Positions 2,259 to 61,675 of a stretch of 64,000 nt of DNA are shown one piece after another; position 1 is the stretch's first letter, and every line of letters begins with the position of its first letter. This DNA is from an uncultured bacterium (GTDB taxonomy: Bacteria > Verrucomicrobiota > Kiritimatiellia > PWTM01). The stretch is from the NCBI GenBank assembly GCA_937139365.1, contig CAKZPT010000066.1, positions 1 to 64,000 on the forward strand, given 5' to 3'. The position numbers and the translations under genes were made by a program. The notes beneath the pieces are model-generated. The model did no database searches and was not told the origin of the DNA. It saw nothing but the letters and a program-made list of their open reading frames with translations.

Positions 2259-3524
2259 CTATATCGGCCGTTCTGTCGCCGGGGAAGAAGGCGGCCCGCC
2301 GAGGGCGAACTCCAGCAGCCGACACTCGATGGGCCCGTTGTACACGGTCCGCCGCCGGTCGAGCCGCAGGCCGATGCGCCGGGCCAGCCGTAGGTGGCCG
2401 GTGATCACCACACCGCGCCCGCTCGGTCCGGCGCGGCGGAAGAACTCCCCGATTCGTCGGTACTCGGCCAGCAGCGCCGCCTCGTCCGCGCCCGTCCGCC
2501 GGCCGTACTCGGGGTTGACCACGATCCACGGCGCCGGGCCCGGCAAGGGCGTGCGATCGAGGTCCGCCACGACGATGCGCAGGTCCTCTGCAACGTCCGC
2601 CCGGCGGGCGTTGCGCCGCGCCGCCTCCACGGCCGCCGGATCGCGGTCGGCCGCGACGATCACCGCACGAACCGGTTGCACGGCCCGCCGGGCGGCATCG
2701 AGCTCGGCGCGCCACCGCTCTTCGTCGTGCGTTCGCAGGTGTCGAAAGGCGAACTTCCGTCGCAACAATCCTGGCGCGCGGCGAGCCGCGATCCAGGCCG
2801 CCTCGATCGCCAGCGTGCCGCTGCCGCACATCGGGTTCACCAGCGGCGCCCGTCCGTCCCAGCCGGAGGCGATCAGCAGGCCGGCCGCCAGCGTTTCGCG
2901 CAGGGGGGCCACGACCAGATCGCGCCGATAGCCGCGAAAACAGAGAGGTTCCCCCGTGGTATCGAGGTAGATACGGCAGAGCCGATCGGCCCATCGGACG
3001 AAGACGCAGGCGCCGTCGGGCTGCGGGCCGGAGTCCGGTCGTCGGCCCAGCCGCGAGCGCATACGGTCTGCGATGGCGTCCTTGCATTTCAGCGCAACCC
3101 ACCCGGCGGGCGGCCCGTTGCGGCCCGACCCGACAGCGGCGCGGACCATCAACGGCCGATCGGGCCTCAACAGATCCTCCCACCGTAGCGCCTGCACACC
3201 GCGGTATAGGTCCTCGGGCGAGGAGGCCCAGAACTCTCCCCACAGCCAAAGCACCCGGTGCGCCACCCGCAGCCGGAGATTCCACCGCGCGCACTCGTGC
3301 AGCGTCGCGAGGGTCGTCACGACGGTATCCCCCACCGAGAGGACCGGCACGCCGAGGGCGGCCAACTCCGAGGCCAGGGCGTCCTCCAGGCCGCGCGGGC
3401 AGGTGATGGCGGTCTCCGCGGCGCCGAACGGGCCATCCGCGGCCGCTTGACCCGCACCGGCGGGCTTCCGTATCGTGCCCGAAATGAGCCGTGTCCTCCT
3501 TCTCGCCGCGTTGTTTCTCGCCAC
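2259..3524 (-). CDS. THUMP-domain class I SAM-dependent rRNA methyltransferase (RlmL-like)
   Basis: 421 residues from GTG 3522-3524. N-terminal ferredoxin-like/THUMP region begins at TAITCPRGLEDALASEL; the C-terminal Rossmann methyltransferase has the NPMCGSGTLAIEAA SAM loop and a VVNPEYGRR motif in the position of the N-P-P-Y catalytic motif. This is the pattern of enzymes making N2-methylguanosine in 23S rRNA (RlmL N-terminal half, YpsC family). The start is awkward: GTG at 3524 is the only canonical codon before the domain and lies 40 bases inside the divergent lipoprotein gene. A strong AAGGAGGA sequence instead sits 9 bases before an ATT codon at 3483-3485, so initiation there (408 residues) is an alternative. 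Confidence 0.85.
   Translation of the reverse strand: MARNNAARRRTRLISGTIRKPAGAGQAAADGPFGAAETAITCPRGLEDALASELAALGVPVLSVGDTVVTTLATLHECARWNLRLRVAHRVLWLWGEFWASSPEDLYRGVQALRWEDLLRPDRPLMVRAAVGSGRNGPPAGWVALKCKDAIADRMRSRLGRRPDSGPQPDGACVFVRWADRLCRIYLDTTGEPLCFRGYRRDLVVAPLRETLAAGLLIASGWDGRAPLVNPMCGSGTLAIEAAWIAARRAPGLLRRKFAFRHLRTHDEERWRAELDAARRAVQPVRAVIVAADRDPAAVEAARRNARRADVAEDLRIVVADLDRTPLPGPAPWIVVNPEYGRRTGADEAALLAEYRRIGEFFRRAGPSGRGVVITGHLRLARRIGLRLDRRRTVYNGPIECRLLEFALGGPPSSPATERPI
3447..3476 (+). promoter_or_regulatory. sigma70-type promoter for the BamD-like gene, probably leaderless
   Basis: TTGACC (3447-3452), 18-base spacer, TATCGT (3471-3476), then 7 bases to the ATG at 3484. Transcription would start at about the ATG itself. 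There is no Shine-Dalgarno sequence before this ATG. The promoter lies inside the 5' end of the divergent methyltransferase gene. Confidence 0.55.
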
Positions 3525-5389: not shown

Positions 5390-5417
5390 AGGATAGCGTC
5401 CTGAGGATGCGTGTCAA
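5390..5417 (-). promoter_or_regulatory. sigma70-type promoter for rpsT
   Basis: On the minus strand TTGACA (5412-5417) is followed after 16 bases by TATCCT (5390-5395). Predicted start near 5383, giving a leader of about 70 bases. The -35 overlaps the first codons of the divergent membrane-protein gene at 5407. Confidence 0.65.
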
Positions 5418-9778: not shown

Positions 9779-9807
9779 TTGATGGAGGGGGATGGCCGGG
9801 GTATACT
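9779..9807 (+). promoter_or_regulatory. sigma70-type promoter, leaderless arrangement before GTG 9814
   Basis: TTGATG (9779-9784), exactly 17 bases, TATACT (9802-9807), then 6 bases to GTG 9814. Transcription would start on the GTG. No ribosome-binding sequence lies between. Confidence 0.6.
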
Positions 9808-9813
9808 GCGGAC

Positions 9814-10551
9814 GTGCGGCCGGTCCTGACCATGGGGCTGATTCTGGCGGGCGCCGTCTCCGCGGCGCCGACGCCGGGTTTCGAACGGTACAAGGTCATT
9901 CTGGACCGCCAACCGTTCGGGCTTGTGTTGTCCGCCGCCACGAATGCCGAGCCCGCGGCCCCCCCTCCCATTGTCGCGGGGCCGGGCGGCGAGGCGTTGG
10001 GGATGCGGGCAAGCAGCCTGGTCATGGTCGACGGGGAAGGCCCCCGAGTTGGGCTGGTCGATGTCAAAACGGGTCGCAGCCTGTACCTGATGCCCGGAGA
10101 GACGCAGGAGGGCATCCGGGTCGTATCGGCCGATTTCGACGCCGAGGAGGTCATCATTCAGCGCGGAGCTGAAATGGCCATTTTGAAACTCAAGGAGGCT
10201 GGCACGACCGAGAAGAGAATGCTCGGCGCGCTGACGGCTCCCCGCCCCGGGACCGATCCACGCCGCATTCTCGGCGGCGTCGCGCCGACCACTCCACCGG
10301 CGCCGGCGCCCACCACGCCGTCCGCGCCACCCGCGGCGCCGCGGCTGCAAGGCGCCGAGCTTGAGGCGCACCTTCGTAACTACCAGATGGAGGTGATCCG
10401 CAAAGGCCTGCCTCCCCTGCCCATTCCCCTGACGCCGGAGATGGATGCGCAGCTAGTGCAGGAAGGCGTCCTGCCGCCCCAGGGGACGACGGTCATCCAG
10501 GGGTCCGGCGCCCAGATCATCATCCAGCACCAGCCGCAGCCGGCACCCTGA
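9814..10551 (+). CDS. secreted/periplasmic protein, possibly GspC/PilP-like
   Basis: 245 residues from GTG 9814, with ATG 9832 as a shorter option. A signal peptide (VLTMGLILAGAVSAAP) is followed by GFERYKVILDRQPFG, which resembles the start of the GspC/PilP periplasmic domain, then strands around LVMVDGEGPRVGLVDVKTG and EGIRVVSADFDAEEVIIQRG. The C-terminal half is Pro/Ala-rich and ends in a QIIIQHQPQPAP tail. GspC-type proteins link the two membranes in type II secretion or pili. No other secretion genes are next to it, so this is a weak family guess. The promoter abuts the start codon. Confidence 0.6.
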   Translation: MRPVLTMGLILAGAVSAAPTPGFERYKVILDRQPFGLVLSAATNAEPAAPPPIVAGPGGEALGMRASSLVMVDGEGPRVGLVDVKTGRSLYLMPGETQEGIRVVSADFDAEEVIIQRGAEMAILKLKEAGTTEKRMLGALTAPRPGTDPRRILGGVAPTTPPAPAPTTPSAPPAAPRLQGAELEAHLRNYQMEVIRKGLPPLPIPLTPEMDAQLVQEGVLPPQGTTVIQGSGAQIIIQHQPQPAP

Positions 10552-10848: not shown

Positions 10849-13032
10849 ATGAGAGAGATCGGTGGAACACGTCAGGCGGCGGTGTCGGCGATCGTCAAGT
10901 ACCGCCCGCCCGAGCGCCCGTTTAACTTCCTCGAGAAGCCGGCCAAGGAGATTTTCGGGACCAATGTGTTCAGCGACGAGGTCATGCGCGAACGGCTGCC
11001 GAAACCGGTGTACCAGGCCCTTCGCCGGACGATCGAGGGCGGCGAACCGCTGGACATCAAGCTGGCCGACGCAGTCGCGGTCGCGATGCGCGACTGGGCG
11101 ATCGAGCGTGGGGCGACCCACTACGCCCACGTCTTTTTTCCGCTCACCGGCCAGACGGCCGAAAAACACGATTCCTTCCTGGAACCCGACGGCCGCGGCG
11201 GCGTGCTGGCGGAATTCTCCGGCAAGCAGCTCATCCGCGGCGAACCGGATGCCTCGAGCTTCCCATCCGGCGGGCTGCGCGCCACCTTCGAGGCGCGAGG
11301 CTACACGACGTGGGACGTCACCAGTCCGGCGTACATCCTCGAGAATCCCAACGGTACGACCCTCTGCATCCCGACGCTGTTTTCCTCGTGGACCGGCGAG
11401 GCCCTGGACAAGAAGACGCCGCTGCTCCGCTCGATCCAGGCCCTGAACCAGCAGGCCCAGCGAATCCTTGCGCTGTTCGGCCACCGTAGCCCCGGGCTGG
11501 TGCAGGCGACGGCGGGTCCGGAGCAGGAGTATTTCCTGATCGACCGGAATTTCTTCTTTGCGCGCCCCGACCTGCTCAACGCCGGGCGCACCCTGTTTGG
11601 CGCGCGCCCGCCGAAGGGCCAGGAACTCCAGGACCAGTATTTCGGAGCGATCCCCGACCGCGTGCTGGCCTGCATGCTTGAGACGGAGCACGAGCTATTC
11701 AAGCTCGGCGTGCCCGTAAAGACGCGCCACAACGAGGTGGCGCCGGCGCAATACGAGATCGCCCCGGTGTACGAGAACGCCAACGTCGCGGCCGATCACC
11801 AGCATCTGGTCATGCTGCAACTCCAGCGCGTGGCGCAGAAGTACGGCATGGCCTGCCTGCTCCACGAGAAGCCGTTCGCCGGCATCAACGGCTCCGGGAA
11901 GCACCTCAATTGGTCGCTCGCCACGCCGGCGCAGAACCTGCTGGACCCCGGCACGACGCCGCACGAGAACGCCCAGTTTCTGGTCTTCTGCGCGGCGGTC
12001 ATTCGCGCCGTCCATCGGCACGGCGACCTGTTGCGTGCCGTCGTGGCCTCGGCCGGCAACGACCACCGCCTTGGGGCCCACGAGGCCCCGCCGGCGATCA
12101 TCTCGGTGTTTCTGGGCCAGCAGCTCACGGACATCTTCGAGCAGATCCGCCGCGGGACGCTGCGCAGGACCCGCCGACCGGGATTTCTCAATGTGGGGGT
12201 CGACCTGCTGCCGCCGTTGCCAAAGGACGCCGGCGACCGTAACCGGACCAGCCCCTTCGCCTTCACCGGGAACAAGTTCGAGTTTCGTGCGGTCGGCGCC
12301 AGCCAGTCCGTCGCCGGAGCCCTTACTGCGCTCAACACGATCGTCGCGGAATCCCTGGACTACATTGCCACCCGGCTCGAGGCGGCGCCGAAGGATACCC
12401 CGGTGCGGTTCAGCGCGGCCGTGCAGCGAGTGCTGCAGGAGGTCATGCGGGAGAGCGCGCCGGTGATTTTCAACGGCGACAACTACTCCACCGAATGGCA
12501 TCGCGAGGCCGTCCGCCGCGGCTTGCCCAACCTTCAGAATACGGTGGACGCGTTGCCCGTCCTGGCCCAACCGGAGGTCGCGGAGATGTTCGAGCGGTAC
12601 GGCGTGCTCTCCCGCCGCGAGTTGCAGAGCCGGTACGAGGCGTACGTGGAACGGTATGTCCAGGACGTGCAGATCGAGGCGCGCCTGACGTGGCGGATCG
12701 CCAAGACTCAGATTTTCCCGGCCGCCGTGGCCTACGAGCATCGGCTGGCGTCCACTTCGCTTGCCCTGAAGAGCCTCGGGATGGAACACTGCACCACCGT
12801 CCTGGAGGAGTCGTCCGGCCTGCTGGCCCGCTTCCAAAAGACCCTGGTCGAGCTGGAGCGGCGAATCGGGGCGACGCCGACTGGAGCGGACATCGGGGCG
12901 GCCCGATATGCGCGGGACACACTGCTGCCGGCGATGGGGGAGGTGCGCAGGATTGCGGACGCGCTGGAATGCGTCGTCGCCGACGATCTCTGGCCGCTGC
13001 CGACCTATCAGGAAATGCTGTTCATCAAATAG
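10849..13032 (+). CDS. glnN: glutamine synthetase type III
   Basis: 727 residues from ATG 10849, chosen because GGAGGA lies 8 bases upstream; an earlier in-frame ATG at 10777 has no such site. Length and the core [17 protein letters not shown], the [21 protein letters not shown] segment, [28 protein letters not shown] and [11 protein letters not shown] are characteristic of the large type III enzyme, which forms a dodecamer and makes glutamine from glutamate, ammonia and ATP. Type III enzymes lack the adenylylation loop of type I. A second, type I enzyme (15169-16590) is in the same block, so ammonia assimilation is duplicated. Preceded by tRNA-Arg and followed closely by a methionine-pathway gene on the same strand. 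Confidence 0.96.
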
Positions 13033-21657: not shown

Positions 21658-21686
21658 TTGATCAGCGCCCGCAGGGGCCGTACACT
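21658..21686 (+). promoter_or_regulatory. sigma70-type promoter for the MenA-like gene, leaderless arrangement
   Basis: TTGATC (21658-21663), 17 bases, TACACT (21681-21686), then 7 bases to ATG 21694. No ribosome-binding sequence precedes the ATG. Confidence 0.6.
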
Positions 21687-21693
21687 TCGGCAC

Positions 21694-22641
21694 ATGAGCT
21701 CAACGAACTTCGAGCCTATCAACGAACGGCCCGGCTGGGCCAAGCGATTGTTCTTTGCGTGCCGCCCCTGGAGCGCCCCGATCTCCACGGTTCCGGTGTT
21801 GATGGGCGCCGCGATCGCCGTCGCGATGGGGGCGCCGCTGCGATGGGGCCGCCTCGCCCTGACCCTGATCGGGGTCTGGCTCGCCCACGCTGCGGCCAAC
21901 CTGTTCAGCGACCTGTCGGATTACCGGCGGGGTCTGGACCGGGTCGTTTTGCCGGTCAGCGGGGGGCTGGCCCGGGGATGGCTCTCGGAGCGTCAGACCT
22001 TTCTCTTTGGCGTTGCGTGCTTGGTGGCGAGTGGCGCGATTGGTGTCTGGTTGGCCGCCCTGGCCGGGCCGCTGCCGTGTGTGGTGGCTGCGGCCGGTTT
22101 CGCGCTCGGCCTGGGCTACCCCGCGCTGAAACCTCGGGCCGGCGGCGACGCGGCGGTGTTCGCGGCGTTCGGGCCGCTGATCGCGCTGGGCACCTGGAGC
22201 GTGTTCACTGCGCGGTTTTCGTGGTTGCCGGTGTTGTGGACCTCCCCGTTTGGGCTCATCGTCATCGCGGTGCTCCACGCCAACAACTGGCGCGACATTA
22301 CCGCCGATCGAGCGCTGGGCATCCGCTCGGTGGCTGGCCTTCTGGGCGACCGCGGATCCCGTCGCTACTATGGCGCGCTGTTGTTTGGCGCCTACGCGCT
22401 GACGACCGTGATGATCGCCGTGCCGCGCATGGTTCCCGCGCTCGGCTGGCCCGCGATGCCGTGGACGTTCCTGCTCGTGTTCCTCACGCTGCCGCGGGCG
22501 GTTAAGTTGTGGCGCCGCGCCGTGCCCTGCGGGGAGGGTCCGCTCCCGCCTGCCCGTCTAACGCTCGACGCTTCGACGGCGGAGTTCATGACTCCGTTCG
22601 GCGCGACGAACGTCCTGGCGATTCTCCTGGCTGTTCTGTAG
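21694..22641 (+). CDS. MenA-like UbiA-family prenyltransferase
   Basis: 315 residues with about eight hydrophobic helices. The first Asp-rich motif is NLFSDLSDYRRGLD and the second DITADRALGIRSVAG, the pair that binds Mg-prenyl diphosphate in UbiA enzymes; the order and spacing resemble 1,4-dihydroxy-2-naphthoate polyprenyltransferase (menaquinone synthesis). Acts in the inner membrane. No other men genes are nearby, so the acceptor is not certain. The ATG 21694 follows a promoter with 7 bases between the -10 and the start codon. Converges with tatD, whose stop lies 6 bases beyond. Confidence 0.82.
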   Translation: MSSTNFEPINERPGWAKRLFFACRPWSAPISTVPVLMGAAIAVAMGAPLRWGRLALTLIGVWLAHAAANLFSDLSDYRRGLDRVVLPVSGGLARGWLSERQTFLFGVACLVASGAIGVWLAALAGPLPCVVAAAGFALGLGYPALKPRAGGDAAVFAAFGPLIALGTWSVFTARFSWLPVLWTSPFGLIVIAVLHANNWRDITADRALGIRSVAGLLGDRGSRRYYGALLFGAYALTTVMIAVPRMVPALGWPAMPWTFLLVFLTLPRAVKLWRRAVPCGEGPLPPARLTLDASTAEFMTPFGATNVLAILLAVL

Positions 22642-23863: not shown

Positions 23864-23891
23864 TTGACCGCGGCCGTGTCGCGACTAGAAT
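23864..23891 (+). promoter_or_regulatory. sigma70-type promoter with very short leader for the gene at 23903
   Basis: TTGACC (23864-23869), 16 bases, TAGAAT (23886-23891), then 11 bases to ATG 23903. Expected untranslated leader is only about 5 bases. Confidence 0.5.
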
Positions 23892-23902
23892 CGCGCCTCC
23901 TC

Positions 23903-26269
23903 ATGCACCGCGGCGCCGCCATTGTAATCGCCTTTCTCTTCGGGTGCGGCATTGTCGACGCCGACTCCCGCCCATCCTTCGTGTCGCCGGCATGGACGGC
24001 AAACAACGGCAGTCCGCCCGCCCGATTGGGGCCCGATGGCGTGCGATTTTCGCTCGATTTTCAGGGCGAGCGCGAGCGGTGCTTCTGGGACCTAAGCGGA
24101 ACATGGGACCTCTCCGCGGTCCGGTTGCTCGCCTTCGAGTTCACCTGCGACGCTCCCGAGAACGTCCGCGCGGCGATCGTCTATTTCGAGTGCGCCGGCG
24201 GCTGGCGACTGGCCGCACTGCCGATCCGCCGACCCGGCCGCCAGCGATGGTTTCTCGATGTTGGCCGTCTTGAGTCGGAAGGTCGTCCCGGTCCGCTTTC
24301 CTCCGTGAAGCGCGTTCGCCTCTCCTTTTGGCGGAACGGCCCGGGGTCGGCCGCGTTCGTGCTGCATGCCTGCGGCCCCGTGGATCCGCTCGTCGCCGTC
24401 CTTCAAGGAGAGGTCTCCCTGCCTGATGCCGGCGAACGCGCCTACGCGCGGAGGGTCAGCCAGCGCGTGGTCCGGTGGCTGGAGGCGATGGGGCTACCGG
24501 CAGTCCTTGTGCCCGAGGCCGAATTCCGCCCTACCACGGGCCTACGCGTTGCGATTCTCCCCTACAACTGGCTGCTTCCCGATCGTGTGTGGTCCTCGGT
24601 CCGCTCCTTCCGTGAGGGGGGCGGCCATCTTGTAGCTTGCTATTCGTCCGACGCGCGTCTGGCGGGGCTGATGGGCCTTCGCCTGGGCGCCTATCAGCGT
24701 CTGACCAACGGTTCGCAATGGAGCCATATCCGGTTTCTCGAGCCGTCCCGAATCCCATGGCCTGCGCAGATCGGACAGTTCACGCAGCATGCCCTTCCGG
24801 TCACGCCGGCGCGATCCGACGCACGGATCATCGCGCACTGGGCCGACGACTCCGGCCGCGCGCCGGTCCTGCCCGCCGTCGCGGTCAGCGACGCGGGATT
24901 TTGGATCACGCATGTCCCCAACAGCGATGACGGGCCGGGCAAACAGTGGATGTTGGCGGGGATGGTGGCGGAGCTGGCCCCCGAGGCCTGGCGTTGGATC
25001 GCCGACCACGCTCTGGTCGAGGCAGGGCGCATCGACTCGTTTCGCGATTTCGGCCATGCGGTGGACTCGATCCGGGCAACGTTGGGCCGCGTGCCGGACG
25101 GCGGGGTCGTCGGCGACCTTTTGGACCGCGCAACCGCCCTTCGAAACGAAGCTGCCCAGGCGGCGGCGAATGGACGCTGGACGGTGTTCGGGCAGCGGGT
25201 TCGCGATGTCCGGCGCGCTCTGACGGAGGCCTACGCCCGCATCCAGACGCCCCAGCCCGGAGAGCGGATCGGCATCTGGGATCATTCCGGCACCGGCCTT
25301 TACCCGGGCGACTGGAACCGCACGTGCGTTGAGTTGCGACGCGCCGGTGTCACGGACGTGTTCGTCAACGCGTTGTGGGCGGCGCAGGCGCACTATCCCA
25401 GCGACGTGGTGCCGGCCTCGTTCACCGCCCGGTCGCTCGGGGACCAACTGGACGCCAGCATCCGCGCCGCGCGGCGTCATGGTCTCCGGGTGCATCTATG
25501 GAAGGTATGCTGGAACCTCGAAGGGGCGACGCCGGAGGCCGTCGAGCGGCTCCGTCGGGCCGGCGCGCTGCAGTCCTCGCAGGACGGCCGCCCGATTGCC
25601 TGGCTTAACCCCGCCGTGTCGACCAACGCGGACCGGGAGCTGGCGGCCATCGTCGAGGCGGCCTCTCGGTACCCGCTCGACGGCATCCACCTCGACTACA
25701 TCCGCTGGCCGGAACGTCAGGCGTGCTTCGGTCCGGCGACGCGCAGCGCGTTCGAAGCCGCCACCGGCCGGCCGTGCCGGCGATGGCCCGCCGAGGTCGC
25801 AGACGGCGGGCCTCGATCGAACGAGTTCCGACGCTGGCGGGCCGGCGTGATCACGGACTTCGTCCGCCGTTGTCGACGGGAGCTGCAGCGGATCCGGCCG
25901 GATCTTCAGCTTTCGGCCGCCGTGTTTGCGGACCCCGCCGACTGTCCCGTGTCGGTCGGGCAGGACTGGCCGGCGTGGCTGCGCGAGGGACTGATGGATT
26001 TCGTCTGCCCGATGAACTACGACGAGAACCTGCACCGGTTCGCTGCCCGCTGCGCCGCCCACTTGGCCCTGCCCGGCGCCGTCGGGCGCATCTGGGAGGG
26101 GATCGGCGCGAGTGCGGGGGAATCCCAGCTTCTGGCCGACCAGGTGATCGAACAGGTCGTCGAGGCCCGCCGCAGGGGGGCAGCGGGGTTCGTTTTGTTT
26201 GACCTCAGCCCGACGGTTCGCGACCACGTGTTGCCGATGTTGCCGCTCGGCCTGACGCGGCCGCGATGA
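23903..26269 (+). CDS. family 10-like glycosyl hydrolase (DUF187/YngK-type), secreted
   Basis: 788 residues from ATG 23903 with signal peptide (GAAIVIAFLFGCGIVDA). Residues about 20-160 look like a carbohydrate-binding beta sandwich (WTANNGSPPARLGPDGVRF; FWDLSGTWDLSAV). A middle region has a ThuA-like flavour (VPEAEF...ILPYNWLLPDRVWSSVRSFREGGG). The C-terminal half is the hydrolase barrel: GIWDHSGTGLYPGDWNRT, VTDVFVNALW, GLRVHLWKVCWN, LDGIHLDYIRWP, MDFVCPMNYDEN. The H-L-D-Y-I-R-W-P and M-N-Y motifs fit the DUF187 family acting on peptidoglycan-like or other polysaccharides. A divergent gene from tatD with its own promoter. Confidence 0.82.
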   Translation: MHRGAAIVIAFLFGCGIVDADSRPSFVSPAWTANNGSPPARLGPDGVRFSLDFQGERERCFWDLSGTWDLSAVRLLAFEFTCDAPENVRAAIVYFECAGGWRLAALPIRRPGRQRWFLDVGRLESEGRPGPLSSVKRVRLSFWRNGPGSAAFVLHACGPVDPLVAVLQGEVSLPDAGERAYARRVSQRVVRWLEAMGLPAVLVPEAEFRPTTGLRVAILPYNWLLPDRVWSSVRSFREGGGHLVACYSSDARLAGLMGLRLGAYQRLTNGSQWSHIRFLEPSRIPWPAQIGQFTQHALPVTPARSDARIIAHWADDSGRAPVLPAVAVSDAGFWITHVPNSDDGPGKQWMLAGMVAELAPEAWRWIADHALVEAGRIDSFRDFGHAVDSIRATLGRVPDGGVVGDLLDRATALRNEAAQAAANGRWTVFGQRVRDVRRALTEAYARIQTPQPGERIGIWDHSGTGLYPGDWNRTCVELRRAGVTDVFVNALWAAQAHYPSDVVPASFTARSLGDQLDASIRAARRHGLRVHLWKVCWNLEGATPEAVERLRRAGALQSSQDGRPIAWLNPAVSTNADRELAAIVEAASRYPLDGIHLDYIRWPERQACFGPATRSAFEAATGRPCRRWPAEVADGGPRSNEFRRWRAGVITDFVRRCRRELQRIRPDLQLSAAVFADPADCPVSVGQDWPAWLREGLMDFVCPMNYDENLHRFAARCAAHLALPGAVGRIWEGIGASAGESQLLADQVIEQVVEARRRGAAGFVLFDLSPTVRDHVLPMLPLGLTRPR

Positions 26270-35399: not shown

Positions 35400-35646
35400 G
35401 TCCACGTCCTCCGGTTCGGCGTCGCCGCCGGGCCCGAAGGGTAGCCGGAGACTGAGGTCGGCCGCAAGAACGCCGCCGCCGCCTGAAGGCATCGCGTACG
35501 ACAGGCCGTCCGACTTTGCCTTGCCGCAAAGTACCGTGCAGGCCGGCTTTTCGCTCGATCTTTTGTCCGATGGAGGGTCTGCGAAGATGATCGCCACCGG
35601 CTGTGTCTCCGCATGTTGAGCTGTGCGGATCCTATGTTAGATTAAG

Positions 35647-37173
35647 GTGGTGCAAAAGATTTTTCGCCATTTTAGCCGGGCGGTTATCTATTTGGTGGTC
35701 ACCGACGCCCTAGCGTTTTTCGGGGCGTTCGGCGTGGCGATGAGGCTCCGGTTTCGCCCCTTCATCAACGTCATCGAGATCCGGACGGGCGAACTGATCC
35801 CGGAGGCCGCCTTCGTTGGGCTCTTGTCGCTGGTGGCCGTGCCCGCCGTCTTCCACGTCTTCCGGCTGTACCAGCGACGCGTGTGGTTCTCCCGGTCGTG
35901 GCACGCAATTCGCCTCGTCCAGGCGGTGGCCGCCATTCTCGCAGGTTATCTGATTCTGCAGTATCTGACCAAGTCTCCGATCATCGAGGAGTCGCGGCTG
36001 GTGATCCTGATGTGGGGTGGGTTCACGCTGGCCGCCACGGCCGTCAACCGGTTGGTCGTCTTCCCGCTGTTGCTGCACTGGGCGGCCTCTGGAGCGATGC
36101 ACCGGCGCATCGCGATCATCGGGATCAACGAGTTCAGCCGGAAGTTCGCCGCGGACATCCAGCGACAGAAGGACCGCTATCTGCTTTACGTGGTCGGCTT
36201 CGTGAGCGACCAGGTTCCCGCTGGCGAGGACGTGTTGCCCGGCGTCCCCTGCCTGGGGTCGCTTCACCGGCTGGAGCGCCTCGCGGAGCTCTACAACCTC
36301 GAAGGGGTGGTGTTGACGGCTGGCGACAGCTCCTACGAGGAGCTGATGGACTCGATCGAGCGCTGCGTGCAGGTGTTCGGGTGGGTCGACGTCCACACCG
36401 ACCGCACCGCCGGCTTGGCAAGAAGCTTGGACACCGACACCTATTTCGACATCCCTTTCCTCCGAATGCGCAGTCTCACAAAGAGGCCTTTCCAATTGTG
36501 GCCGAAACGTATGTTCGACCTCGTCGTTTCGGCCTCGGGAATCGTGGTCCTGTCGCCCCTTTTCCTGTTGATCGCCCTCCTGGTTAAGCTGACCTCGCCG
36601 GGGCCGGTGCTGTACGTCTCCGAACGCATCGGCCGCGGCGGGAAGCCTTTCAAGTTCTACAAGTTTCGCAGCATGGTCGTCGGCGCCGATAAGGACCACC
36701 GCCGCCTTGAGGATATTAAGAAGATCTATGCCAACGCCGAGGCCCCGGCTCCGACCAAGATCGTCAACCGGGCCCTGCTGACGCCGATCGGAGGTTTCCT
36801 CCGGAAGTGGGCCCTGGACGAGCTGCCGCAGCTCTTCAACGTCTTGAAAGGCGAGATGTCGCTTGTGGGGCCGCGCCCGCTGCCGAAAGAGGAGTACGAC
36901 GCCCAAGATCCTTGGCAGAGGCTTCGATACGAGGCCTTGCCTGGGTGTACGGGACTGTGGAAAGTCTACGCCAGCCGCCAGACGGCGATGACCTGCGGCC
37001 ACTCGGTGTTGTACGACATCTATTACGCCCGCAACGCAAATCTTCTGCTGGACATCGTGATCCTCGCGCGGACCGCATGGATCATTCTCGCCGGCCTGGC
37101 GGATGGAGTTCCCGCGCCGCCCGAGGTCGCGACGCCCTCCGCGGAGAAACAGCCCGCGGACACTCAGCCATAG
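35647..37173 (+). CDS. exopolysaccharide polyprenyl glycosylphosphotransferase (WcaJ-like)
   Basis: 508 residues from GTG 35647. Four N-terminal helices, a Rossmann-like middle (RRIAIIGINEFSRKFAADIQ, then VVLTAGDSSYEELMDSIERC), a fifth helix after LWPKRMFDLVVSASG, and the catalytic domain ISERIGRGGKPFKFYKFRSM-type, LDELPQLFNVLKGEMSLVGPRPLP and PGCTGLWKVYASRQT. Second initiating transferase of the window, attaching a sugar-1-phosphate to undecaprenyl phosphate. The upstream region has TATGTT 8 bases before the GTG and no Shine-Dalgarno, so a leaderless start is possible but the -35 is poor. Convergent overlap of 10 bases with the DegT gene. Confidence 0.9.
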   Translation: MVQKIFRHFSRAVIYLVVTDALAFFGAFGVAMRLRFRPFINVIEIRTGELIPEAAFVGLLSLVAVPAVFHVFRLYQRRVWFSRSWHAIRLVQAVAAILAGYLILQYLTKSPIIEESRLVILMWGGFTLAATAVNRLVVFPLLLHWAASGAMHRRIAIIGINEFSRKFAADIQRQKDRYLLYVVGFVSDQVPAGEDVLPGVPCLGSLHRLERLAELYNLEGVVLTAGDSSYEELMDSIERCVQVFGWVDVHTDRTAGLARSLDTDTYFDIPFLRMRSLTKRPFQLWPKRMFDLVVSASGIVVLSPLFLLIALLVKLTSPGPVLYVSERIGRGGKPFKFYKFRSMVVGADKDHRRLEDIKKIYANAEAPAPTKIVNRALLTPIGGFLRKWALDELPQLFNVLKGEMSLVGPRPLPKEEYDAQDPWQRLRYEALPGCTGLWKVYASRQTAMTCGHSVLYDIYYARNANLLLDIVILARTAWIILAGLADGVPAPPEVATPSAEKQPADTQP

Positions 37174-38372: not shown

Positions 38373-38401
38373 TTGGAGGGGCCTGCCGACGCTGATATAA
38401 G
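38373..38401 (+). promoter_or_regulatory. sigma70-type promoter, leaderless arrangement before ATG 38408
   Basis: TTGGAG (38373-38378), exactly 17 bases, TATAAG (38396-38401), then 6 bases to ATG 38408. An AAGG overlapping the -10 is the only Shine-Dalgarno-like sequence. Divergent from the DegT promoter, whose -35 lies 27 bases away. Confidence 0.6.
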
Positions 38402-38407
38402 GGCGCC

Positions 38408-39514
38408 ATGTTGCTATCCACCACGCTGCGACTGTTCCTCGACGGGATCGGACGGCGAGAGGAATATGAGTACTATCTTCGCAAGTTCCAGTCCGCGCCG
38501 GGCACATGTTTTGCCGCGATCGTGCCGGACGACGCGGCGATGGAGGAGTCGGCCGAGGCCATCGCGTTCGATCTGCAGTTTTTGCTTCGGCTGGAGCTCG
38601 TCCCGCTCGTGGTGCTGTGCGGGGCGCCCGCGCCGGCCGCGGCCGAGGTGCTGACGCGGGCCCTGCCGGGGGCGCGCCAGGCTGACTTCTCCGATCCTGA
38701 CCGAATCGAGGTCTTGCTGCGCGAGTCGCGGGCCGGTCGCGTCCCGCTCCTGATCGTCGCGCCGGACCGCGCTCGGCTCGCGGTCCTTCGGCCCCTGGTG
38801 CCCGCGGTCGTTCGACGAATCCAGTGGCTGCGCGCGCGCGGCCCCTACCGCGACCTGCAAGGCCGGAGCGTGCCGCTGCACTTGCTGCGCGGCTCGAACG
38901 ACCACACGCTGGGGGCCGCTGACCGCATGGACGAAAGCCTCGCCGTCGCGGAGGAACTGCTGGAGGTCGATCCCACCCTCCATTTCTGCGTCGCCTCGCC
39001 GCTGGATCTGCTGGCCGAGCTGTTCACCGTTCGCGGCAAAGGCACCGCCGTGCGCCGGGGCAGCGTGATCGTGCACGCGGCGGCTCTCGACCAGGTGGAC
39101 GCGTGCCGGTTGACGGCGCTGCTGGAATCGGCCTTCGGCCGCCGGCTGGCGCGGCCGGAGACGCTGGCGCTGGCCAGCGACATCTACGTCGAGCGGGACT
39201 ACCGGGGGGCGGCCTTGCTCGAGCCGCACCCCGCCGGCCGATACCTGTCGAAGTTCGCCGTCGGCACGGAGGCCCGCGGCGAGGGGCTGGCGCACGAGCT
39301 ATGGAGCATCGTACGGCGCGAGCATCCCTCGCTATTCTGGCGGTCGCGGCCCGAGAACCCCGTCAACGGCTGGTACGACCAACAGGCGGAGGGACGGCTA
39401 CGTGGCCCCGACTGGCACATTTTTTGGCGCGGCGTTCAGCCGGAGGACATCCCCTCCGTGATCGAGTACTGCCGCGCCCGGCGGCCCGATTTCGAGCCGC
39501 CCGCCGCGGACTGA
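38408..39514 (+). CDS. N-acetylglutamate synthase-like protein with DUF619 (NAT) acetyltransferase domain
   Basis: 368 residues. Residues about 1-215 resemble a degenerate amino-acid kinase fold (VPLVVLCGAPAPAA, LAVAEELLEVDP, LLAELFTVRGKGTAVRRG); about 220-355 is an acetyltransferase domain with YLSKFAVGTEARGEGLAHELW and FWRSRPENPVNGWYDQQAEG, the signature of the DUF619 (PF04768) NAT domain of fungal/vertebrate NAGS and Xanthomonas NAGS-kinase. Family role: acetyl-CoA plus glutamate to N-acetylglutamate, first step of arginine synthesis. No other arg genes here. Promoter with 6 bases between -10 and ATG. Confidence 0.8.
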   Translation: MLLSTTLRLFLDGIGRREEYEYYLRKFQSAPGTCFAAIVPDDAAMEESAEAIAFDLQFLLRLELVPLVVLCGAPAPAAAEVLTRALPGARQADFSDPDRIEVLLRESRAGRVPLLIVAPDRARLAVLRPLVPAVVRRIQWLRARGPYRDLQGRSVPLHLLRGSNDHTLGAADRMDESLAVAEELLEVDPTLHFCVASPLDLLAELFTVRGKGTAVRRGSVIVHAAALDQVDACRLTALLESAFGRRLARPETLALASDIYVERDYRGAALLEPHPAGRYLSKFAVGTEARGEGLAHELWSIVRREHPSLFWRSRPENPVNGWYDQQAEGRLRGPDWHIFWRGVQPEDIPSVIEYCRARRPDFEPPAAD

Positions 39515-53240: not shown

Positions 53241-54077
53241 TCACTGGGCCTTTTTCAAACCGGCCGCCGATCCCGACAGCTCGCTGCCGGGTACGTCGTC
53301 ATCCACGAACATGCGAACGTAATCGACCTCGAAGCGGGCCCGAGTCATAGCCTCGTCAATGCCCTTCTGCCCGCCCCACGTCCCGCCGATCGCGAGGTTG
53401 ATCAGAGGATACTGCGGGGCGTCGTACGGCCATGCGTCGATGTCGGCCGCGGGCTCCCGGCGGAACACGAACCGTTCAACGCCATCCACCTCGAACCGGA
53501 CGTGGTCGGGCCGGACGTCGACGGCGTAGACGTGGAAGTCGCGGGAGACGCCCGGCAGGCGGAACTTTGCGCTCTTATGGGTGCCGAGCCGGTGGTTGTA
53601 GCGGCCGGTGTGGACGGTGGTGTGGATGACATCGGGATCGAAGCCGACAAACTCCATGATGTCGATTTCACCCCGCCGGGGCCAGGGCAAGGGCGGCTCG
53701 TGCACGCCCATCGTCCACAGAGCAGGCCACACGCCGCGGCCTTCGGGGAGTTTCGCGCGGGTCTCGATGCGGCCGTACCGGAGGTGCAGCCGCCCCAGCG
53801 TGATCAGGCTGGCCGACGTCCACTCGCTGCCTTTCCATGGCTCGCGACGCGCCTCGATCACCAACCGGCCGTTCTCCACACGCGCGTTTTCCGGGCGGTT
53901 GCGGGTGTAGAACTGCGCCTCACGGTTGCGGACCTTGCCTTCCTCGTAGTCCCATACGGCCGGATCGGGGCGGCCGTCGCGATCGAATTCGTCACACCAC
54001 GCCAGCCGCCATCCTGCGCCGGCCGGAACAACAACGGAAACTGCGGCGGCCACCATCCAACGAATGTATCCGAACAT
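53241..54077 (-). CDS. secreted family 16 glycoside hydrolase (laminarinase-like)
   Basis: 278 residues from ATG 54075-54077. Signal peptide (WMVAAAVSVVVPAGAG). Beta-sandwich with WRLAWCDEFD near the start, catalytic G-E137-I-D139-I-M-E142 with nucleophile and acid, LPEGRGVWPALWTMG, and FHVYAVDVRPDHV. This pattern hits 1,3-beta-glucanases such as laminarin hydrolases. It lies in the middle of a housekeeping operon between asd and surA, 10 bases before surA. Confidence 0.93.
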   Translation of the reverse strand: MFGYIRWMVAAAVSVVVPAGAGWRLAWCDEFDRDGRPDPAVWDYEEGKVRNREAQFYTRNRPENARVENGRLVIEARREPWKGSEWTSASLITLGRLHLRYGRIETRAKLPEGRGVWPALWTMGVHEPPLPWPRRGEIDIMEFVGFDPDVIHTTVHTGRYNHRLGTHKSAKFRLPGVSRDFHVYAVDVRPDHVRFEVDGVERFVFRREPAADIDAWPYDAPQYPLINLAIGGTWGGQKGIDEAMTRARFEVDYVRMFVDDDVPGSELSGSAAGLKKAQ

Positions 54078-59866: not shown

Positions 59867-60277
59867 TTGGGGCGAGACCCACAAACTGGGTCCGCCGTCC
59901 GCCTGTCAAAGGGGCGATTCGGGGAGTGGTGGTTTCGCCAACCGGCGGAGGCGTATCGGCGTCGCCAAGAGTGGCCCGGAGATCGGCGTGCGGCGCGTCG
60001 ACCCTCTCGGCCAGATGCGGGCACCGCGGACCGTTTCGCCTCACGACGCCGTCGAGCGCCAGAAACCCTGGCGCGCCATGATTGGCCGAAACCGCGGGAG
60101 GAACCGCCTTCCCCTCCCCGACCGCCGTTGCCGCGCGTGCACAAATCGCGCCGCCCGTGGCGGCGCTGTTTCACACGTTGGGCCGAATGCCTGGCACGAT
60201 CCTGCTATAGGTGCGTGCCGGCTCTGCCGCGGAATCCGTTCTTGTCAACCAGCGGTGGCTCCCGTACATTCGCCCGC
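59867..60277. other. 411-base intergenic region
   Basis: No supportable gene or RNA. It carries the promoter of the FrhB-like gene near its right end. Open frames here are Arg/Pro-rich and without family sequence. Confidence 0.5.
60242..60270 (+). promoter_or_regulatory. sigma70-type promoter, leaderless arrangement before GTG 60278
   Basis: TTGTCA (60242-60247), 17 bases, TACATT (60265-60270), then 7 bases to GTG 60278. No ribosome-binding sequence between. Confidence 0.6.
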
Positions 60278-61675
60278 GTGGGCGGACCGAGCGACCACTT
60301 CGCGGGCGACCCCTACCGCAATGCGGACGGGATCCGTCGGGTCGTTCGCGAGGGGCTGTGTCACCGTTGCGGGGCCTGCATCGGCCTGTGTCCGGTCGGC
60401 ACGTTCACCATTCGTGATGGCTACCCCTACCCCGTCGGCGAATGCATTCGCTGCAACATCTGCGTGCGGGTGTGCTCCGGCCTCGAGGTGGACTACCCCG
60501 CCCTTGGCCGCCTTGTCCACGGCGAGGGCTACCGTTTCGGCCCGCTGACCGGGCCGACGCGGAGCGTGTGGATTGCCCATGCGACCGACCGCGCCATTCG
60601 CGCAGGCGGCGCCAGCGGCGGCGTGGCGACCGGCGCGCTCGCCCACTGGCTTCGGCGGGGCGAGATCCGCGGCGCGATCGTGACGGCCGCCGATCCCAAC
60701 GAGCCGGCCCGCGGCACGGGCTTCGTCGCCCGCACCGTCGAGGAGCTTGGCCGCACGCAGCAGTCCCGGTACACAACCGCGCCGAGTTTCGCCGCGCTCG
60801 CACAGATTCGGGACGAAGACGGCCCCTTCGCCGCCGTCGGCCTCCCCTGCCAGATCCATTCCTTGCGCAAGCGGCAGGCGATGGACCCCCGATGGATCTC
60901 CCGCGTCCCGATCGTCATCGGTCTTCTCTGTCACTACAACCTGCCATGGGAGGTCGTCCGGCTGACGGCCGAGCTCTTTGCGCCGCCCGGCGCTCATCCG
61001 GTGCGTTGCTTCTCCCGCCAGAAGGACGATCGCGGCTGGCCATGCAACACTATGGAGATCCACTACAGCGACGGAAGCGTTCGCCGGAGTCCGTTTTCGC
61101 CCGCGGCAACGTTCAACGTGATCTCCCGTGTAGCGCCGCTTGGTCGATGCCTGTTTTGCTTCGACGCCTGCGCCGAATTCGCGGATTTCTCCGTCGGCGA
61201 CCCATGGATCCGAGGTCCCGACGGCAGATGGAAGTATCATTCGTCCGAGGGCTTCACGCTGGTCTTCATCCAGACCGAACAGGGCGAGCGGCTGTGGCGG
61301 CGGCTGCTGGAGGAGGGCGCGATCGAGGGATTCCAGATTCCCTTTGAGGAATTCCTCGAGAATGGCCAACGCGACATGATCGTCGAAAAAAAGGAGCGGA
61401 CGGCGCTCCGCGTTCGCGTCTGCCGCGCGCTGGGCCGGCCCGTCCCGCGGTACCCGGTTGCACTCCCGCGTACCTCCCCCCGGCAGCTTGTCAGGGAGCT
61501 GCTGTTCTGGGTGACGAGACTGAACACCGTCTCGCAGCGCTGGCAGCGCCTTTTGTTGCGAATCGGCTTCGGTCCGCTTGGTCAATGGCTGTTGCGGCGC
61601 CGGGAGCAAGGACGCGAGCGCGTTGCTCGGCGTCGCGCGCAACGGAAAGCTGGCGCGGCCGCCCCCCGCCGGTGA
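60278..61675 (+). CDS. FrhB/coenzyme F420 hydrogenase beta-subunit family iron-sulfur protein
   Basis: 465 residues from GTG 60278; upstream frame sequence lacks family character. N-terminal two-cluster ferredoxin: C-H-R-C-G-A-C-I-G-L-C-P and C-I-R-C-N-I-C-V-R-V-C. FrhB core: GGASGGVATGALAHWL, VGLPCQIHSLRKRQ and GRCLFCFDACAEFADFSVGDPW. The C-terminal 60 residues are a Arg-rich helix. Family members oxidoreduce flavins, F420 or polysaccharide pyruvyl precursors; PVC genomes usually lack F420, so a role in polysaccharide or ferredoxin-linked chemistry is possible. Confidence 0.85.
   Translation: MGGPSDHFAGDPYRNADGIRRVVREGLCHRCGACIGLCPVGTFTIRDGYPYPVGECIRCNICVRVCSGLEVDYPALGRLVHGEGYRFGPLTGPTRSVWIAHATDRAIRAGGASGGVATGALAHWLRRGEIRGAIVTAADPNEPARGTGFVARTVEELGRTQQSRYTTAPSFAALAQIRDEDGPFAAVGLPCQIHSLRKRQAMDPRWISRVPIVIGLLCHYNLPWEVVRLTAELFAPPGAHPVRCFSRQKDDRGWPCNTMEIHYSDGSVRRSPFSPAATFNVISRVAPLGRCLFCFDACAEFADFSVGDPWIRGPDGRWKYHSSEGFTLVFIQTEQGERLWRRLLEEGAIEGFQIPFEEFLENGQRDMIVEKKERTALRVRVCRALGRPVPRYPVALPRTSPRQLVRELLFWVTRLNTVSQRWQRLLLRIGFGPLGQWLLRRREQGRERVARRRAQRKAGAAAPRR

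Follow-up and report, generated by a model that had tools for sequence, protein, structure and literature searches.

Sigma-70-type promoters set at the start codon point to leaderless or near-leaderless mRNAs in a genome of the class Kiritimatiellia

Our results indicate that, in this genome, ordinary sigma-70-type promoters set at the start codon very probably give rise to leaderless or near-leaderless mRNAs and to translation independent of Shine-Dalgarno (SD) sequences for about 9-13% of the genes that stand first in their transcription units. The evidence is a strong, frame-dependent enrichment of -10 boxes just ahead of start codons, the independent presence of -35 elements at the proper spacing, and the conservation of individual promoter/start arrangements in related genomes.

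Promoter/start pairs in the window

Six genes in the window (the whole stretch of 64,000 nucleotides analysed, contig 66 of the assembly) had been singled out in a sequence-only reading as having a -35/-10 pair directly ahead of the start codon. All six pairs are indeed present at those starts:

60242-60280, plus strand: promoter of an FrhB/FdhB-like gene; -35 TTGTCA at 60242-60247, -10 TACATT at 60265-60270, gap of 7 nt, GTG at 60278
3447-3486, plus strand: promoter of a TPR secreted-protein gene; -35 TTGACC at 3447-3452, -10 TATCGT at 3471-3476, gap of 7 nt, ATG at 3484
9779-9816, plus strand: promoter of the gene starting at 9814; -35 TTGATG at 9779-9784, -10 TATACT at 9802-9807, gap of 6 nt, GTG at 9814
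21658-21696, plus strand: promoter of a UbiA prenyltransferase gene; -35 TTGATC at 21658-21663, -10 TACACT at 21681-21686, gap of 7 nt, ATG at 21694
38373-38410, plus strand: promoter of a NAT-domain (N-acetylglutamate synthase type) gene; -35 TTGGAG at 38373-38378, -10 TATAAG at 38396-38401, gap of 6 nt, ATG at 38408
23864-23905, plus strand: promoter of a GHL10 glycosyl-hydrolase-like gene; -35 TTGACC at 23864-23869, -10 TAGAAT at 23886-23891, gap of 11 nt, ATG at 23903

The spacer between the -35 and -10 elements is 18 nt at 3484, 17 nt at 9814, 21694, 38408 and 60278, and 16 nt at 23903. The gap of 6-7 nt claimed for the first five genes was measured as such at 3484, 9814, 21694, 38408 and 60278, and the 5-base leader proposed for 23903 agrees with its gap of 11 nt, which leaves about 5 nt. 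The product of the 60278 gene matches Pfam PF04432/PF04422; the 9814 gene has no Pfam match.

The same reading had described these genes as devoid of an SD sequence apart from a weak one at 38408, and this also holds. A scan for SD tetramers found none at 9814, 23903, 38408 and 60278; the ortholog script found no SD at 3484, and none is visible in the sequence ahead of 21694. The only SD-like sequence upstream of 38408 is AAGGG. As for the four genes said to possess good SD sites, glnA (16590, minus strand), asd (55149, minus strand) and rex (44797, plus strand) have SD tetramers, and glnN, whose start is most likely 10849, lies behind GGAGG. The latter gene (10849-13032) encodes a second, divergent glutamine-synthetase-like protein of about 727 residues; it is glnN-like, and its matches to the NCBIfam glutamine synthetase models are far below the cut-offs.

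The window holds leaderless candidates beyond those listed earlier, for example at 35650 (plus strand) and 54056 (minus strand):

35616-35652, plus strand: candidate at a bacterial sugar transferase gene (PF02397); TTGAGC-16-TAGATT, gap of 6 nt, GTG at 35650
54054-54068, minus strand: candidate at a GH16 gene (PF00722); -10 TACATT at 54063-54068, gap of 6 nt, ATG at 54056
62842 (minus strand), 2251 (minus strand) and 5407 (plus strand): other candidate leaderless starts

A good -35 match is absent at 54056, which makes it a weak candidate, and single members of this kind may be chance matches. At 5407 and 62842 an SD-like tetramer is also present, leaving both ambiguous.

Genome-wide enrichment and its alternatives

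The genome-wide analysis covered 1.48 Mb of the 2.82-Mb assembly, or about half of it. The RpoB protein of this genome is 72-75% identical to entries labelled Kiritimatiellaeota, Lentisphaerae and Verrucomicrobia. Genes were called with our own simple caller, which uses a periodic Markov model and ignores the upstream sequence when choosing a start. We then counted ATG/GTG codons at each distance from TANNNT boxes near gene starts, separately for the right frame and for the two wrong ones. Among 622 first genes, 75 boxes are followed by an in-frame ATG or GTG at a gap of 6-8 nt (26 at 6 nt, 31 at 7 nt and 18 at 8 nt), compared with about 21 expected from the background at distances 10-30. The 367 operon-internal genes have only four boxes at these gaps. 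Thus, the narrow gap of 6-7 nt proposed earlier is right for the five listed genes but not for the genome as a whole, where the peak extends over 6-8 nt and has a shoulder at 9.

Loose hexamers do, of course, turn up by chance in a GC-rich genome, and with 9 cases per wrong frame at gaps 6-8, about 9 chance cases are to be expected per 622 genes. However, when only the called starts are considered, 38 boxes are observed against 4.4 +/- 2.2 in dinucleotide-preserving shuffles (Poisson p of about 7e-23), and the spacing is kept in relatives, so that chance matching is an extremely improbable account of the peak. The sequence-only reading had proposed this comparison with shuffles and named a lack of enrichment across the genome as grounds for rejecting its idea; the enrichment came out strong, dependent on frame and limited to first genes.

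The same pipeline was applied to samples of 200 kb from other genomes. There is no peak in the E. coli K-12 sample (11 vs 9-14), while a peak is seen in plasmid 1 of Deinococcus deserti (14 vs 2-4) and in a genome of the same genus, G001 (9 vs 1-2.4). Since the peak is weaker in G029, a more distant member of the class (10 vs 2.5-5), the extent of leaderless promoters across Kiritimatiellia is uncertain.

The start-proximal boxes were chosen blind to the -35 region. Nevertheless, 44% of them have TTG upstream at a spacing of 16-18 nt, as against 3% of TANNNT boxes inside genes, and TTG at spacings outside 15-18 accompanies just 0-7% of the start-proximal boxes. Therefore, these boxes are sigma-70-type promoters of the form TTG-16/18-TANNNT. 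One might suppose instead that an A/T-rich box serves translation, as a site for ribosomal protein S1 would, and it has been pointed out that A/T bias near the -10 position can reflect S1 sites (PMC5397173). Both the properly spaced TTG and the TANNNT shape of the boxes speak against this idea, as does their absence from operon-internal genes, which need translation signals too; we regard it as very improbable.

Another possibility is that the promoters are real but are followed by an ATG or GTG that does not serve as the start, translation beginning downstream, behind a normal leader. Indeed, for some genes the coding-score caller chose a codon beyond the leaderless one, as in the UbiA gene (21796). 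On the other hand, 75 of the codons at gap 6-8 share the frame of the gene, compared with 9 in each wrong frame, the NAT protein is conserved from exactly that methionine in six genomes, and in-frame downstream starts led by an SD are no commoner than in controls (9% vs 12%). A general misplacement of start codons is accordingly unlikely, distinctly so. Thus, none of the three alternatives (chance matches, misassigned start codons, an A/T-rich signal other than a promoter) survived testing as a general explanation.

How common are the start-codon promoters? The excess of promoter scores over background corresponds to about 9-13% of all first genes; for genes transcribed divergently the figure is about 15-19%. 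Of all genes whose context could be used, 7% are simple leaderless candidates. The earlier suggestion that this genome uses leaderless mRNAs on a real scale is fair at this level, which is under that of Deinococcus.

At sigma-70 promoters, RNA polymerase normally starts 6-8 nt past the -10 box. With the box 6-8 nt away from the codon, the first nucleotide of the transcript would be expected to coincide with the first base (A or G) of the start codon or to lie no more than about 3 nt from it. Being leaderless or nearly so, such mRNAs would be translated without SD pairing; by analogy, the 70S ribosome, or the 30S subunit with initiator tRNA, presumably binds the 5'-terminal AUG or GUG directly. 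This mode would operate beside SD-dependent initiation of operon-internal genes. For any one gene, a leadered mRNA may in addition arise from another promoter farther upstream.

SD sequences are found at 4% of leaderless-candidate starts, a rate kept low in part because the -10 box overlaps the SD position, compared with 24% of the other first genes and 49% of operon-internal genes (13% in the control region). A search with the Rfam model for 16S rRNA was negative for this assembly, which is 97% complete, and for two genomes of the same genus. The anti-SD was therefore examined in five relatives, one of them, G003, of the same genus; the 3' end of the 16S rRNA keeps CACCTCCTTT in all. Common SD sequences at operon-internal genes and an anti-SD retained in relatives therefore indicate an organism with both modes of initiation.

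Conservation in related genomes

The clearest footprint is that of the TPR gene at 3484. The promoter and the gap of 6-8 nt are present in 9/9 genomes of the family, representing six genera, in the form TTGACC-17/18-TATYGT (with TAGGCT instead in one genome), and none of the nine has an SD. The N-termini of the encoded proteins are signal-peptide-like from that ATG, though diverged in sequence. For the FrhB/FdhB-like gene at 60278, the five best orthologs in the family (the present genome, G000, together with G001, G002, G003 and G006) have TTG-16/17-TANNNT with a gap of 7-8 nt leading to an in-frame ATG or GTG and have no SD; two copies of greater divergence have, respectively, a gap of 5 and no box. 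At the NAT gene (38408), TATAAG, TATAAA or TATATA lies 5-7 nt ahead of the same ATG in 6/6 genomes, and the proteins read MLLSTTLRL from exactly that codon. The -10 sequence of this gene (38396-38401 in the window) is TATAAG in four genomes, hence not TANNNT, and is preceded by GTGACA in two; its sixth base is conserved, yet unusual for a sigma-70 box.

The remaining three genes show looser spacing. At 9814, a TA box is located 5-9 nt ahead of the start in 7/9 family genomes, the present one included. Relatives of the GHL10 gene at 23903 have TTGAC-16-TA boxes with a gap of 9 in G001, G002 and G003 and of 7 in G004. In relatives of both genes the promoter is thus kept with gaps of up to 9, corresponding to leaders of 0-3 nt. 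Where the gap is 8-11, as among the relatives of 9814 and 23903, the mRNA would have a short leader instead of being leaderless in the strict sense, and 23903 itself represents a conserved very short leader rather than a strictly leaderless start. Conservation is weakest for the UbiA gene at 21694: G003 has a similar TTGACA-16-TACCAT with a gap of 9, and G006 and G008 look similar by eye, whereas the arrangement was not seen in G001 or G002.

Because these six genes were the selection of the sequence-only reading, unselected reciprocal best hits were also compared, using 200 kb of a genome of the same genus. A leaderless candidate was found in both orthologs in 4 cases, in our genome only in 3, in the other only in 3 and in neither in 63, a significant coincidence (Fisher p = 0.001). 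It is conceivable, although we put this forward tentatively and would not bet on it, that in Kiritimatiellia the leaderless expression of particular genes is of old standing, kept across genera (3484, 60278, 38408) while the sequences diverged, which would suggest selection for SD-independent translation.

Relation to known leaderless systems

The view that leaderless mRNAs are mostly described in Actinobacteria, Deinococcus and archaea, voiced in the earlier reading, is out of date. Zheng et al. (2011) detected leaderless genes in 207/953 bacterial genomes (PMC3160421), and the figure cited in the StartLink paper is that 21.6% of bacterial species are predicted to use them (PMC9581028). Cappable-seq gave leaderless shares of start sites of 10% for Akkermansia muciniphila, 15% for Bifidobacterium pseudolongum and 0.4% for E. 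coli (PMC4782308). A. muciniphila is a close parallel to our case in that it belongs to Verrucomicrobiota in the broad sense, uses a -35/-10 promoter and has about 10% of such sites, against 9-13% of first genes here; however, it is of another class, and its leaderless starts were measured, whereas ours are predicted.

Zheng et al. also described TA-led genes, in which a TA-like signal lies about 10 bp before the start in some genes, beside SD-led ones (PMC3160421). The features of that class recur here: a -10 hexamer above chance about 10-14 nt before the start, a -35 partner, restriction to first genes and lack of an SD. What differs is that the groups listed in that study omit Verrucomicrobia/Kiritimatiellia, and that the -35 element, the frame control and the ortholog footprints are added here. 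As in our genome, leaderless and SD initiation are mixed in D. deserti and Mycobacterium tuberculosis, but a higher gene fraction is reported for both (cited in PMC9581028, PMC3898074). Moreover, none of the 14 boxes in our D. deserti sample has TTG at 16-18 nt, compared with 32/75 here.

A literature search for leaderless expression in Kiritimatiellia gave no direct report for the class. Thus, the phenomenon itself is known, including in one relative within the phylum, while the novelty lies in the clade and in the footprints among orthologs. With the orthologs as evidence, the range of leaderless expression now takes in a class most of whose members are uncultured. Where leaderless promoters have long been conserved, the genes behind them lend themselves to the question of why a bacterium whose anti-SD works should keep part of its genes leaderless.

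There is a practical side as well: leaderless genes are prone to start misannotation, and gene callers that rely on SD sequences may misplace starts in this genome. Our own caller chose starts other than 3484 and 21694 at those two genes. In the case of UbiA (21694-21796), the start set by coding score alone is 102 nt too far downstream.
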